Origin: a virus
DNA: 30,452 nucleotides
Direction: 5' to 3' (one strand)
Virus record (IMG/VR): IMGVR_UViG_3300020583_000031
Coordinates: 1 to 30,452 of that record
Shown here: piece by piece, positions 26,824 through 30,452 of the stretch
Position numbering within the stretch: the first letter of the stretch is position 1
How the letters are laid out: each line of letters opens with the position of its first letter
Translations under genes and position numbers: made by a program
The notes under the pieces: generated by a model
Databases searched by the model: none
Told to the model about the DNA's origin: nothing
What the model saw: only the letters and a program-made list of their open reading frames with translations

Positions 26824-27140
26824 CGCTTCTCAGGCTCCCTGTACGGCAGGCGCGGTATGCCTGCAACGAAACTGAGCGCCACAAGACCCACACCGCCGGC
26901 GATCAAACCGATTCCGGGCGAGTACCAGGCAGCACCGGCCGAAATCGCTGAAATACCGGCGATTTCACCCGTTGTGGACAGGATTTCACGCCAATTCCAG
27001 CCAGAATCGGTGGTTTCGGGCGTGTTTTTGGTGCGCGGAAACGGTACGGGGCCTTTCGGCCAGTTCGCGCGCTGACCAGTCGGCTCATTTTCGACGGCGT
27101 GCAGCCGTCCAGCTGTGCCGATCCCGTTGTCAGCGCTCAC
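26820..27140 (-). CDS. Small membrane protein in the packaging operon
   Basis: 106 residues, GTG at 27140, eleven bases inside the end of the large terminase gene. The first 50 residues are polar (MSADNGIGTAGRLHAVENEP, RTKNTPETTDSGWNWREIL). Then two probable hydrophobic helices follow, about 55-75 (GEIAGISAISAGAAWY) and 77-95 (GIGLIAGGVGLVALSFVAGI). It ends with a short basic tail. Small membrane proteins occur between terminase and portal in some actinophages. The function is unknown; superinfection exclusion or membrane association of packaging is a possibility only. Confidence 0.7.
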   Translation of the reverse strand: MSADNGIGTAGRLHAVENEPTGQRANWPKGPVPFPRTKNTPETTDSGWNWREILSTTGEIAGISAISAGAAWYSPGIGLIAGGVGLVALSFVAGIPRLPYREPEKR

Positions 27141-28719
27141 GAGCCCGATTCTCCAATTTGTTCATGTCCCATCCATGCACCCGCGGCACAGCCGGCAGAT
27201 GATTCAAACCCCACACCGCCCCGATCGCAGCCAACAAAGGCGCAACATCGGTCGGTGACTTACTATGATCAACAACCCAGCCCCCGCCAGGCTGATTACG
27301 TTCCACCGCCGATGTGGCGGCAGCATCCAAACCGCTGTGCGGCAGATGCAACACGGTGGAATCCCGCAACCTGTCAAACATCTGACCGTGACCGGCCGAT
27401 ATTTCGGTGCCTTTCCACTCCACAATCGGCAGACGCGCGTCCTGCAAATCCTTCAACAGCGCACCCACTGGGGATGCTGCACCGGAGCGAACCACGACAG
27501 CCGTGTAGGTTTTGCGTTGCTCTTTCAGATAGTCGACAACCCAGTCGGTGCCGGCCCGGTCTTGGGCGACACCAACGACAGCCACACCATCAGTGGTTAA
27601 ACCGGCGCGGGTAACGTATGTTTGTTCGCGTCGGTTTGAAACTTCAACGCATACACAGATTTTCGCGCCCACACCCGGTTTGGCGGTTTCGTCGCGGGTT
27701 GTTTCCCACGACCCCTCCGGAAACGGGCCACCAACACCAAGCGTGGTTTCACGGCAACAAATCTCAGCCTCAGCGATATGCGCCGGCGACGTCCTAAGAC
27801 CGGAAATCAGAGCACGATAAGTGATGCAATTCTCCGTGACCTCCGTGTGGTTACACGACGGATTGGCCTGCATCAACCCCTCAGGGTCATTCCGCGGCAA
27901 GCCCGGTGGCATCGACCACTCAAAAAAACCGGTGTCGAACTCAACCTCAGGCATGTCCTCAAACTCGGGCAGTGCGGCGATCTCGCCGAGGATCTCGCCC
28001 TGGACATCCTCGTCGCCATCCGGCCAGCCAAGTTCACGGTGCGCGAGTGCCCGCAGATACCGCAGCACCACGCCGAAAGCGTCTGGGGCGTTAGAGAACG
28101 CCCAACACTGCGCCCGCGGCCGGGCGTTCATCGTGTTGGTGACAGCCGCCCACGAATCCCACGACTGATGCTCCCGCAACTCGTCCATCAAAATCAGATC
28201 ACCGGAGAAACCACGACCACCGCGGCGGGTAGCCGCAGCAATCCGATACTCCGACGTCAACTCACGCCCAAGCTCGTTGTGGATGATCTGGAACTGCTTC
28301 GGATGACCAAGATAAATCCCATCAGCCGGGATCATCTCCGCCAACTCTTCATCCGCCTGGGCGAGTGATACGGCTTCTTTCCAAACCTTCTCAGCGTTGG
28401 AGAGATCCTGCGCCGTACCGATGACCGTCCGCGACTTCAACGCATACATGTGCCACAACGCCAGGACGATCAAGACCATCGTTTTGCCCGACTGCCGGGC
28501 CACCTCAACGACGACCACACGCCACCTATAGGTGGCGTCTGGGTTCAACTCCAGGGCGTGTTTCAGCAGCCACTCTTGCCAGGGGAAAAGCCGCATGTGC
28601 AGCATCTCTTCGGCGAAGGCGATCGCGGCGAACCCATGCGAAGTCTCAGGGGTTAGTTCACGCCGCGGTGGCGTGAAGACGCGTGGCTCGGTTTTACCGA
28701 GCAGGGTTGATGTTGTCAT
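27130..28719 (-). CDS. terL: Terminase large subunit
   Basis: 529 residues, ATG at 28719; the SD is poor. The N-terminal ATPase has Walker A ARQSGKT (74-80), an adjacent motif GTAQDLSNAEKVWKEA (about 101-116), and Walker B LILMDE (175-180). The C-terminal RNase H-like nuclease contains GVAVVGVAQDRAGTDWVVDYL with the likely first catalytic Asp and a later acidic helix. It cuts concatemers and packages DNA into the prohead through the portal. It is separated from the small subunit gene by a cassette on the opposite strand, an unusual layout. Confidence 0.93.
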   Translation of the reverse strand: MTTSTLLGKTEPRVFTPPRRELTPETSHGFAAIAFAEEMLHMRLFPWQEWLLKHALELNPDATYRWRVVVVEVARQSGKTMVLIVLALWHMYALKSRTVIGTAQDLSNAEKVWKEAVSLAQADEELAEMIPADGIYLGHPKQFQIIHNELGRELTSEYRIAAATRRGGRGFSGDLILMDELREHQSWDSWAAVTNTMNARPRAQCWAFSNAPDAFGVVLRYLRALAHRELGWPDGDEDVQGEILGEIAALPEFEDMPEVEFDTGFFEWSMPPGLPRNDPEGLMQANPSCNHTEVTENCITYRALISGLRTSPAHIAEAEICCRETTLGVGGPFPEGSWETTRDETAKPGVGAKICVCVEVSNRREQTYVTRAGLTTDGVAVVGVAQDRAGTDWVVDYLKEQRKTYTAVVVRSGAASPVGALLKDLQDARLPIVEWKGTEISAGHGQMFDRLRDSTVLHLPHSGLDAAATSAVERNQPGGGWVVDHSKSPTDVAPLLAAIGAVWGLNHLPAVPRVHGWDMNKLENRARER

Positions 28720-28763: not shown

Positions 28764-28789
28764 CTGTAGGTACAGCCTGTAGGTACAGC
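28764..28789. promoter_or_regulatory. Tandem 13-bp operator
   Basis: CTGTAGGTACAGC occurs twice back to back (28764-28776 and 28777-28789). Each copy contains the inverted repeat CTGTA-GG-TACAG. It lies in the 86-nt divergent gap between terL and the RHH gene, directly before the latter's SD. RHH proteins typically bind adjacent short inverted repeats and repress their own genes, so this is the likely autoregulatory site. Confidence 0.7.
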
Positions 28790-28805
28790 TAGTAGAGAGG
28801 TCAAC

Positions 28806-28952
28806 GTGCCCCCCACACCGCTCCGCAACATCCGCATAGACGACGACCTATGGAACGCTGCGCTAGCCAAAGCCGAAAACGAAGGAAGCAACCTCTCCGA
28901 AGTCATCCGCGAATGGCTCGAAACTTGGGTCAAGAAAGGAGATCCCCAATGA
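28806..28952 (+). CDS. Small ribbon-helix-helix regulator (48 aa)
   Basis: GTG at 28806 has SD AGAGAGG five bases upstream. The 48 residues begin MPPTPLRNIRIDDDLW and end WVKKGDPQ. LRNIRID forms the expected DNA-contacting strand, DDLWNAALAKAENEG the first helix, and NLSEVIREWLETWV the second. This is a classical RHH (CopG/Arc-type) pattern. The stop overlaps the next start (ATGA). The gene lies just after the tandem operator, consistent with autorepression. It may also control terL on the other side, though that is speculative. An antitoxin role is a possible alternative, but the next genes do not look like a toxin. Confidence 0.85.
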   Translation: MPPTPLRNIRIDDDLWNAALAKAENEGSNLSEVIREWLETWVKKGDPQ

Positions 28953-29536
28953 CCATCACCGAACTAGACTTCCCACACATGGACGACGAGGACACAACCC
29001 TCGCACCATCAGAAGACAAAACCGAAGCCGTCCACGCCTGGTCCCTCACAGAAACCACCGACCTCGACGCACCCACCGAGCGCTACAGCTGGGGCACAAC
29101 CTGGCTCAACGCCGGCGCATTCATCGCAGCCTCAACCATCGTCGCGGTCATAATCGGCGTACTCGGATGGACAATGCTCAACCATTCAGATCCGGCGCCA
29201 CAACCAACAGCAGCCGAACCAATCCCCACCGCACCCGACGTAATCGTCCCAACCCCGCCAGCACCAACGCCAATACCAACGCCAGCGCCCCAAACACCCG
29301 ACGAGAAATTCATCGCCTGGCTCAAAGCCGACAACCTCTACCCCGACAACCCCACCAAAAGCATCTACAACGCACACGCCACCTGCGACGACTTCAGCCG
29401 AAACATCGAATACCCACGAATCCTAGAAGACCAAAAGAAAAACTCAGGACTCCCAGCATTCGCGGCAGCCGACCTCATCAGCATCGCAGTCAACGCCTAC
29501 TGCCCCCAATACGCACAAAACCTCTTAACGAAATGA
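28949..29536 (+). CDS. Membrane-anchored DUF732-like protein
   Basis: 195 residues from ATG at 28949, coupled to the RHH gene (ATGA). An acidic cytoplasmic N-terminus (MTITELDFPHMDDEDTTLA) is followed by one membrane segment near residues 53-76 (AFIAASTIVAVIIGVLGW). A Pro/Thr/Ala-rich linker comes next, then a C-terminal region of about 70 residues with TCDDFSRN and YCPQYAQNLL. The TCDxF...YCPQ spacing matches DUF732, a mycobacterial secreted-protein family with a probable disulphide. The membrane-anchor form is unusual in my memory. The stop overlaps the next ATG (ATGA). The role is unknown; placement on the cell surface suggests conversion of the host or interference with other phages. Confidence 0.8.
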   Translation: MTITELDFPHMDDEDTTLAPSEDKTEAVHAWSLTETTDLDAPTERYSWGTTWLNAGAFIAASTIVAVIIGVLGWTMLNHSDPAPQPTAAEPIPTAPDVIVPTPPAPTPIPTPAPQTPDEKFIAWLKADNLYPDNPTKSIYNAHATCDDFSRNIEYPRILEDQKKNSGLPAFAAADLISIAVNAYCPQYAQNLLTK

Positions 29537-29871
29537 GACCAGCAATGATCAAACTACTCGCAGCCCTAGCTACCGCCGCCATACTCACCGCAGCCACAGC
29601 CCACGCCGACGGCCCCGACGACCAATACATCAGCGCCCTCAAAAACCACGGCGTCACCACCGCCGACCGAGGACAGTTAATCGCCGACGCCCACCAAACC
29701 TGTGATGCATTCAACCAAGGCGGCATCGGCCTCGGAATAAGCCCCCGAGGATTCGCCCTACTCCAACTCAACAACGCACTATCCGCACAAGGATTAAACC
29801 CGCACGACGCCCAACAAGTCATGATGGACGCAACCAGGGCATACTGCCCCCAATTCGCGCCACCGCAATAA
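29533..29871 (+). CDS. Secreted DUF732 protein
   Basis: ATG at 29533 overlaps the previous stop (ATGA); another ATG at 29545 is possible. The N-terminus is a signal peptide (KLLAALATAAILTAATAHA) with probable cleavage after AHA. The mature part has DDQYISALKNHGVTTADRGQ, then HQTCDAFNQGG and ATRAYCPQF, the DUF732 pattern with one Cys pair. The C-terminal PPQ is short. The gene ends five bases before the end of the small terminase gene on the other strand. DUF732 proteins are common in mycobacterial genomes and of unknown function, so the gene may have been picked up from a host. Confidence 0.88.
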   Translation: MRPAMIKLLAALATAAILTAATAHADGPDDQYISALKNHGVTTADRGQLIADAHQTCDAFNQGGIGLGISPRGFALLQLNNALSAQGLNPHDAQQVMMDATRAYCPQFAPPQ

Positions 29872-29876
29872 GGCCG

Positions 29877-30320
29877 CTAGGCTCCCGAAGCCTTCGACGT
29901 CATCGCCTGCACAGAAGCCAGCCGGCCCTTACGCCGAGCCGAACCCTTACGCAAATCCTCAAGAATCGCCGTCAACCGGGCAGCTGCTTGAGGCTGTTGC
30001 GCCAATGCCAACGGATTATCCAAAATCCTGGCCATCGCCAACGCAGCCTGCGCAGCACCCTTACGAGTCTCCGCAGAAGTCAACGTGGCCAGCTCCTCGA
30101 GCACAGCCTGCACAGCAGAACCATCCGAAGGTGCCTCAGCCACAACCAACGGAGCCGGCCCCGCCACACCCTTCGGCCGACGCCCAGGCGCACCAATCGA
30201 CGTCACGGTTGCACCAGCCGCACGCGCCTTATGTGCACGCCGATACTCGGACTGGGCAGCCTTACAACCAGCGCACCGGCAACCATCGGCATACGACTGC
30301 CGAGTACCATGATCCGCCAT
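29877..30320 (-). CDS. Terminase small subunit, probable
   Basis: 147 residues, ATG at 30320 with AGAGGA upstream. The start HGTRQSYADGCRCAGCKAAQ contains a CxC..C group likely to bind zinc. After a basic Ala/Pro linker there is a helical region (AVQAVLEELATLTSAETRKG) and LARAMARILD-like helices, ending with basic GSARRKGRLASVQAMTSKA. Small terminase subunits of mycobacteriophages often show this Cys-rich N-terminus and Arg/Lys end. It would recognise phage DNA for TerL. The normal TerS-TerL adjacency is broken by the opposite-strand cassette. Confidence 0.65.
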   Translation of the reverse strand: MADHGTRQSYADGCRCAGCKAAQSEYRRAHKARAAGATVTSIGAPGRRPKGVAGPAPLVVAEAPSDGSAVQAVLEELATLTSAETRKGAAQAALAMARILDNPLALAQQPQAAARLTAILEDLRKGSARRKGRLASVQAMTSKASGA

Positions 30321-30452
30321 TGACGTCCTCTATCGCATCTTTATGCAGCCCTACGCAAATGCGCGCCACAATAAAGTACCTGTTACCCGTAACCGGCACC
30401 CTCAGTTTTACAACGTTACCGCAAAATCGCCCGCGGGATAAAGTTTGGAGCG
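30321..30452. other. Noncoding edge region with a small palindrome
   Basis: No convincing gene is visible in these 132 bases. A perfect inverted repeat GTTAC-CC-GTAAC lies at 30382-30393 upstream of the small terminase, and an AT-rich stretch with possible -10-like TACTTT (minus, 30373-30378) is next to it. No clear -35 could be found. It may hold the regulatory region of the late operon. Confidence 0.4.

Follow-up and report, generated by a model that had tools for sequence, protein, structure and literature searches.

DUF732 genes have already been noted in phages; they have turned up both in a toxicity screen of phage genes and close to whiB genes of phages (PMC7474061, PMC8612146). In Troll4 (cluster D1 mycobacteriophages), the gene of the secreted DUF732 protein gp76 follows, after 3 bp, that of gp75, a small protein listed by the authors as DNA binding, and both proteins inhibit growth when overproduced, with a toxicity index of 4 (PMC7474061). 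Troll4 gp75 has no Pfam match and is not established as an RHH protein. Girr gp54 also inhibits growth and is thought to act early in lytic growth (PMC11075535); its gene has a weak match to the DUF732 region (E 0.7, tblastn with the protein of contig L020, described below). The DUF732 genes of StevieRay, Rialto, Girr, and Troll4 all lie in the early or rightward region.

A second group has a membrane anchor. Phayonce gp31, TChen gp43, and prophiGD17-2 gp2 (phrog_13315) carry an AWS motif, one transmembrane (TM) segment, a Pro-rich linker, and a C-terminal DUF732 domain, and are transcribed against the late genes. Full-length relatives of this type stand beside the integrase in Phayonce, TChen, Henu3, and M. 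abscessus prophages, and others adjoin integrase-like genes in two host loci (L047, L051). Sbash gp38 has the N-terminus and TM segment in common with this family and a different outer domain; Sbash genes 37–39 form an operon that RNA-seq finds expressed in the lysogen (PMC6426596).

Further systems resemble the locus described here in design. Sbash gp30/gp31 and Butters gp30/gp31 (PMC6426596, PMC7542560) are prophage-encoded pairs, each with a membrane protein as one of its two members. Ltp, a superinfection-exclusion lipoprotein made by the temperate S. thermophilus phage TP-J34, is phage-encoded and anchored outside the membrane by way of a flexible spacer, and has a small repeat domain; the likeness is one of architecture only, and Ltp serves here only as a comparison of how such a protein works (PMC3952083).

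DUF732 proteins are a large mycobacterial surface family for which a literature search gave no function. Their repeated uptake by phages, beside the integrase or at the terminase junction and under small regulators of their own, provides a compact and testable handle on the domain. In the locus described here, an anchored DUF732 gene of the Phayonce type, likewise transcribed against the late genes, lies not at the integrase/repressor module but between terS and terL, behind an RHH gene and ahead of a secreted DUF732 gene. Troll4 gp75-gp76 matches the small regulator and the secreted protein; unlike this locus, it has no membrane-anchored DUF732 protein and lies among genes of the same direction. 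In the Sbash and Butters pairs, one protein is cytoplasmic and of the DUF4747 type and the other spans the membrane four times, whereas here a one-pass and a secreted protein both carry DUF732. Ltp differs in its lipid anchor, its sequence, and its location in the lysogeny module.

Position and layout of the cassette

The window, which is the whole stretch of DNA analysed, is a virus record of 30,452 bases held as linear. According to the open reading frame list and homologues, its recognisable genes are all on the minus strand, except for three plus-strand genes at 28806–29871, which encode in order a 48-aa RHH protein, a one-pass membrane DUF732 protein (TM-DUF732), and a secreted DUF732 protein (Table 1). 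An earlier sequence-only reading had described such an antisense trio with these identities, and both points are borne out. It had also placed ATGA overlaps at both junctions. The first is a true overlap (28949–28952), while the second is one only if the third gene starts at 29533; the start at 29545 leaves an 8-base gap.

Table 1. Coordinates of the cassette, its putative operators, and the flanking genes in the window.
Feature	Position	Strand	Basis
Terminase large subunit (terL), flank	27130..28719	-	phrog_9 E 2.4e-56; 56% identity to phiT45-1 gp2
Operator-like inverted repeat CTGTA-GG-TACAG, copy 1	28764..28775	+	Pattern search
Operator-like inverted repeat, copy 2, tandem, 13-bp period	28777..28788	+	Pattern search
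RHH (Arc-like) small regulator, 48 aa, GTG start	28806..28952	+	phrog_6506 E 1.5e-18; mycobacteriophage relatives
TM-DUF732 protein, 195 aa	28949..29536	+	PF05305 E 3.5e-9; phrog_13315 E 1.1e-12
AWSL motif, residues 30–33	29036..29047	+	Alignment; also in integrase-adjacent phage and host proteins
DUF732 domain of membrane protein, residues 118–187	29300..29509	+	Pfam; AlphaFold
Secreted DUF732 protein, 108 aa	29545..29871 (alternative ATG 29533)	+	PF05305 E 2.3e-11
Putative small terminase (terS), flank	29877..30320	-	phrog_37967 E 7.7e-23; 38% to phiT45-1 gp1

The same reading set the cassette between two terminase genes. The identity of terL is firm, and the terS label is putative, resting on position and on the 38% identity to phiT45-1 gp1, which itself carries the annotation "hypothetical". 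In phiT45-1, an M. abscessus phage, the terS-like gp1 and terL overlap directly with nothing between them, so that the cassette is an insertion; this supports the proposal of a compact antisense moron. The stop codons of the third gene and of terS are only 5 bases apart, which leaves no room for a terminator and counts against the explanation favoured below.

The window is a fragment, and no integrase gene was detected in it; one is present in phiT45-1 and in the 43-kb contig L023, whose terL is 76% identical, and the phage lineage is therefore probably temperate. Its relatives suggest that the hosts are probably mycobacteria.

The window and contig L019 end at the same base (window 30420–30452), and the contigs of several relatives (starts of L019, L021, L022, and L108) open with a similar CCGAACTTT-like sequence ahead of terS, as would be expected of natural genome ends (cos).

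From 28806 to 30320, third codon positions are strongly strand-skewed regardless of coding direction. The plus-strand cassette genes have 1–6% T and 7–14% G at this position, and the minus-strand terS has 8% C and 5% A, while the terS genes of L022, L023, and phiT45-1 are without such skew. The skew in both cassette and terS hints that the cassette has long been resident at the junction.

The regulator and the two DUF732 proteins

The first gene matches the phrog_6506 profile ("Arc-like repressor") over residues 1–46; its match to Pfam RHH_1 (E 0.0039) is below Pfam's cut-off. Upstream of it lie two perfect 12-bp copies of CTGTAGGTACAG, the first of which coincides with the position (28764) where the sequence-only reading has the cassette begin, and the pattern CTGTANNTACAG is found twice in the window, both times at this place, versus 0.01 expected by chance. 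It is likely that the RHH protein regulates its own gene through these tandem operator-like repeats, as had been proposed from the sequence, and a related cassette (L021, below) has an inverted repeat inside its promoter spacer. No consensus promoter was seen before the RHH gene in the window, which counts against the explanation favoured below.

The RHH family itself is not tied to DUF732. A profile search finds phrog_6506 in 17/397 genomes. Loci with this family, 19 in hosts and 6 derived from phages, were checked for DUF732 genes, and none has one within about 1.5–2.5 kb; in the host genomes, the DUF732 profile did detect a positive control. The recurring arrangement is a small gene for a DNA-binding protein next to a DUF732 gene, as in the window, L021, L138, TChen gp43-gp42, and Troll4 gp75-gp76.

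Both downstream proteins belong to Pfam DUF732 (PF05305), with scores of 37.4 and 44.4 bits against a curated cut-off of 22.4, and two cysteines are kept in each domain, in agreement with the Cys-paired domain read from the sequence. The membrane protein has an acidic N-terminus with the AWSL motif, one TM helix, a Pro-rich linker, and then DUF732. Its single hydrophobic segment spans residues 55–78, and AlphaFold predicts a helix at 51–78 and a confident C-terminal domain in a model of moderate quality (mean pLDDT 62). The secreted protein consists of an N-terminal signal-like stretch followed by DUF732, modelled as four helices, again with moderate confidence (mean pLDDT 71). Both DUF732 domains would lie outside the membrane, one anchored through the Pro-rich linker and one free.

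By its profile match and its alignment with phage and host proteins, the membrane protein is a member of a known but undescribed mycobacterial family. Among 397 genomes of a single mycobacterial genus, 259 match the phrog_13315 profile at E <= 1e-4, many of the matches being partial, and with Phayonce gp31 as query, tblastn hit 33 mycobacteriophage records. When the phage collection was searched directly with the window's own two DUF732 proteins, nothing matched, nor did a genome scan reveal any relative of the membrane protein; relatives were reached via PHROGs and Pfam and via the terminase junction.

A PDB fold search with both moderate-confidence models gave no significant match (best E 0.76 and 2.8), and searches of solved structures found no DUF732 relative; weak matches to Ohr and DotF structures (E about 0.04) were treated as chance. 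A known anti-phage defence system was also rejected, as PADLOC models assigned 0 families to the three cassette proteins.

Recurrence at terminase junctions and in host genomes

The junction was surveyed by two terL-guided scans of viral contigs and by a profile census for DUF732, terS, and RHH. Three short metagenomic contigs carry cassettes of the same plan at the terS-terL junction, all antisense to the terminase genes. L020 has TM-DUF732 and secreted DUF732 genes with no regulator, and about 12 bp separate its divergent starts. L021 has a different RHH gene (33% identical; Pfam RHH_1 E 7.6e-10) followed by TM-DUF732. In L138, whose terL is 53% identical, three ATGA-joined genes at 548–1449 encode a membrane protein of 60 aa, an HTH protein, and TM-DUF732. 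Cassette-facing promoters occur in L021 (TTGACA-16-TATCGT, with the inverted repeat CCCTA-GA-TAGGG within the spacer) and in L138 (TTGACA-16-TAGACT); these are consensus matches only, one each versus 0.3 expected per region, though both agree in direction.

In L022 and most other relatives in which terS was found, the junction is empty. The junction of L023 (4567–5991) holds genes for a fibre-like protein (Pfam Gp80 E 2.2e-18) and an alpha/beta hydrolase, both in the late direction. Another contig, L017, is filed as uncultured Myxococcales and may be a mis-binned actinophage contig; its terL is 53% identical to the query.

The exact RHH-DUF732-DUF732 triplet, for which the sequence-only reading had suggested a wider search, was not found outside this phage in the viral contigs or the junction census. 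L019 carries it and was rejected as a second case, since it is identical to the window over all 8,461 of its bases and is not independent support. L020, L021, and L138 share plan, junction, and strand with the window but differ in partners, which suggests that regulators are replaced.

This replacement bears on whether the cassette is a toxin-antitoxin-like addiction module, in which the RHH protein would be the antitoxin, the DUF732 membrane protein the toxin, and the prophage would be stabilised. The RHH-first order and overlapping genes fit such a module, as does the growth inhibition by overproduced phage DUF732 genes (PMC7474061, PMC11075535). However, the 48-aa RHH protein has little beyond its DNA-binding domain and almost no tail, and so no obvious part to bind a toxin. 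Moreover, the same type of DUF732 gene stands beside an unrelated RHH gene in L021, an HTH gene in L138, and no regulator in L020; a specific antitoxin should not tolerate being swapped or lost in this way. A type II system with an RHH antitoxin was accordingly rejected, as the protein has almost no tail and the regulator is not conserved with DUF732, and addiction of this kind is very unlikely.

Membrane and secreted DUF732 genes occur together in the window, in L020, and at the chromosomal host locus L075, where the secreted gene comes first, 11 bp from the membrane gene; in prophiGD17-2 gp2, two DUF732 domains are fused in one protein. In each of the host genomes G044 and G104, three pairs of DUF732 genes share a strand and have starts within 800 bp (0.04–0.06 expected under random placement), while two other genomes in the same count have no tandem pairs. 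The earlier view that a membrane-held and a free version of one domain may work together gains from these neighbours and this fusion. The pairs, fusion, and tandem genes support joint action of the two domains but do not prove it.

Possible roles of the cassette

On the best explanation, which has a probability of about 0.5, the cassette is a moron that a temperate actinophage carries in antisense and that regulates itself; its expression would be separate from that of the late genes and would most likely take place in the lysogen. That it is a lysogen-expressed surface moron has even or very slightly better odds. The RHH protein may bind the two operator-like repeats and cap expression of the cassette, since overproduction of phage DUF732 proteins slows the growth of mycobacteria; the growth inhibition by Troll4 gp76 and Girr gp54 would fit such an autorepressor. 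The anchored and free DUF732 domains may then cooperate, with the cell wall or an incoming phage as their target. A lysogenic role, suggested earlier from the sequence, is made plausible by relatives that adjoin the integrase and by the Sbash gp38 operon (PMC6426596), which together with the orientation of the cassette favour expression from the prophage. The L020 cassette, with no regulator gene and little space between its divergent starts, and the relatives in early regions count against this explanation, and the latter argue for a lytic role in some phages.

Such a lytic role would be host takeover, in which DUF732 proteins made early inhibit host growth or cell-wall synthesis and the RHH protein shuts them off later or in the lysogen. 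The toxicity of Troll4 gp76 and its neighbour gp75 (PMC7474061), that of Girr gp54 (PMC11075535), and the rightward early positions in StevieRay and Rialto all suit it. But the cassette stands alone among late genes instead of belonging to an early operon, the proteins closest to it in full-length architecture are encoded beside the integrase, and a relative sharing its anchor is expressed in the lysogen (PMC6426596), so that host takeover is rather unlikely here.

Within the favoured reading of a lysogen-expressed moron, the likeliest benefit would be that other phages are excluded at the DNA-entry step, in the manner of Ltp. Relatives suggest that the cassette alters the surface of the infected cell; exclusion as its specific benefit, which the earlier reading had named along with envelope change, is put forward tentatively. 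It competes with lysogenic conversion, in which the proteins would simply add to the host's DUF732 surface repertoire, serving in uptake, stress, or encounters with other organisms, and would play no part against phages. DUF732 genes do abound in mycobacterial genomes (9–28 matches in each of the twelve examined), and L075 holds a similar membrane/secreted pair on the chromosome. Yet the papers searched offer no function for host DUF732 proteins, and the integrase-adjacent position of the phage relatives is also home to mycobacteriophage defence genes (PMC6426596); conversion without exclusion is improbable.

If the cassette does exclude phages, it would represent an envelope-level defence in mycobacteria and would be relevant to the choice of therapy phages. 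A bolder and speculative version, for which the odds are low, is a two-part exclusion device: tethered and free copies of the domain would assemble in the mycobacterial cell wall and keep the DNA of other phages from entering, a small, interchangeable DNA-binding protein would hold them at a non-toxic level, and surface cassettes of this kind would land repeatedly at the terS-terL junction.

The anchor of the membrane protein also occurs apart from DUF732. At L102 3507–4211, L063, L065, and L069 (Sbash gp38 and host loci), an AWS-motif N-terminus and TM segment are joined to other outer domains, as if the anchor could take interchangeable ones.
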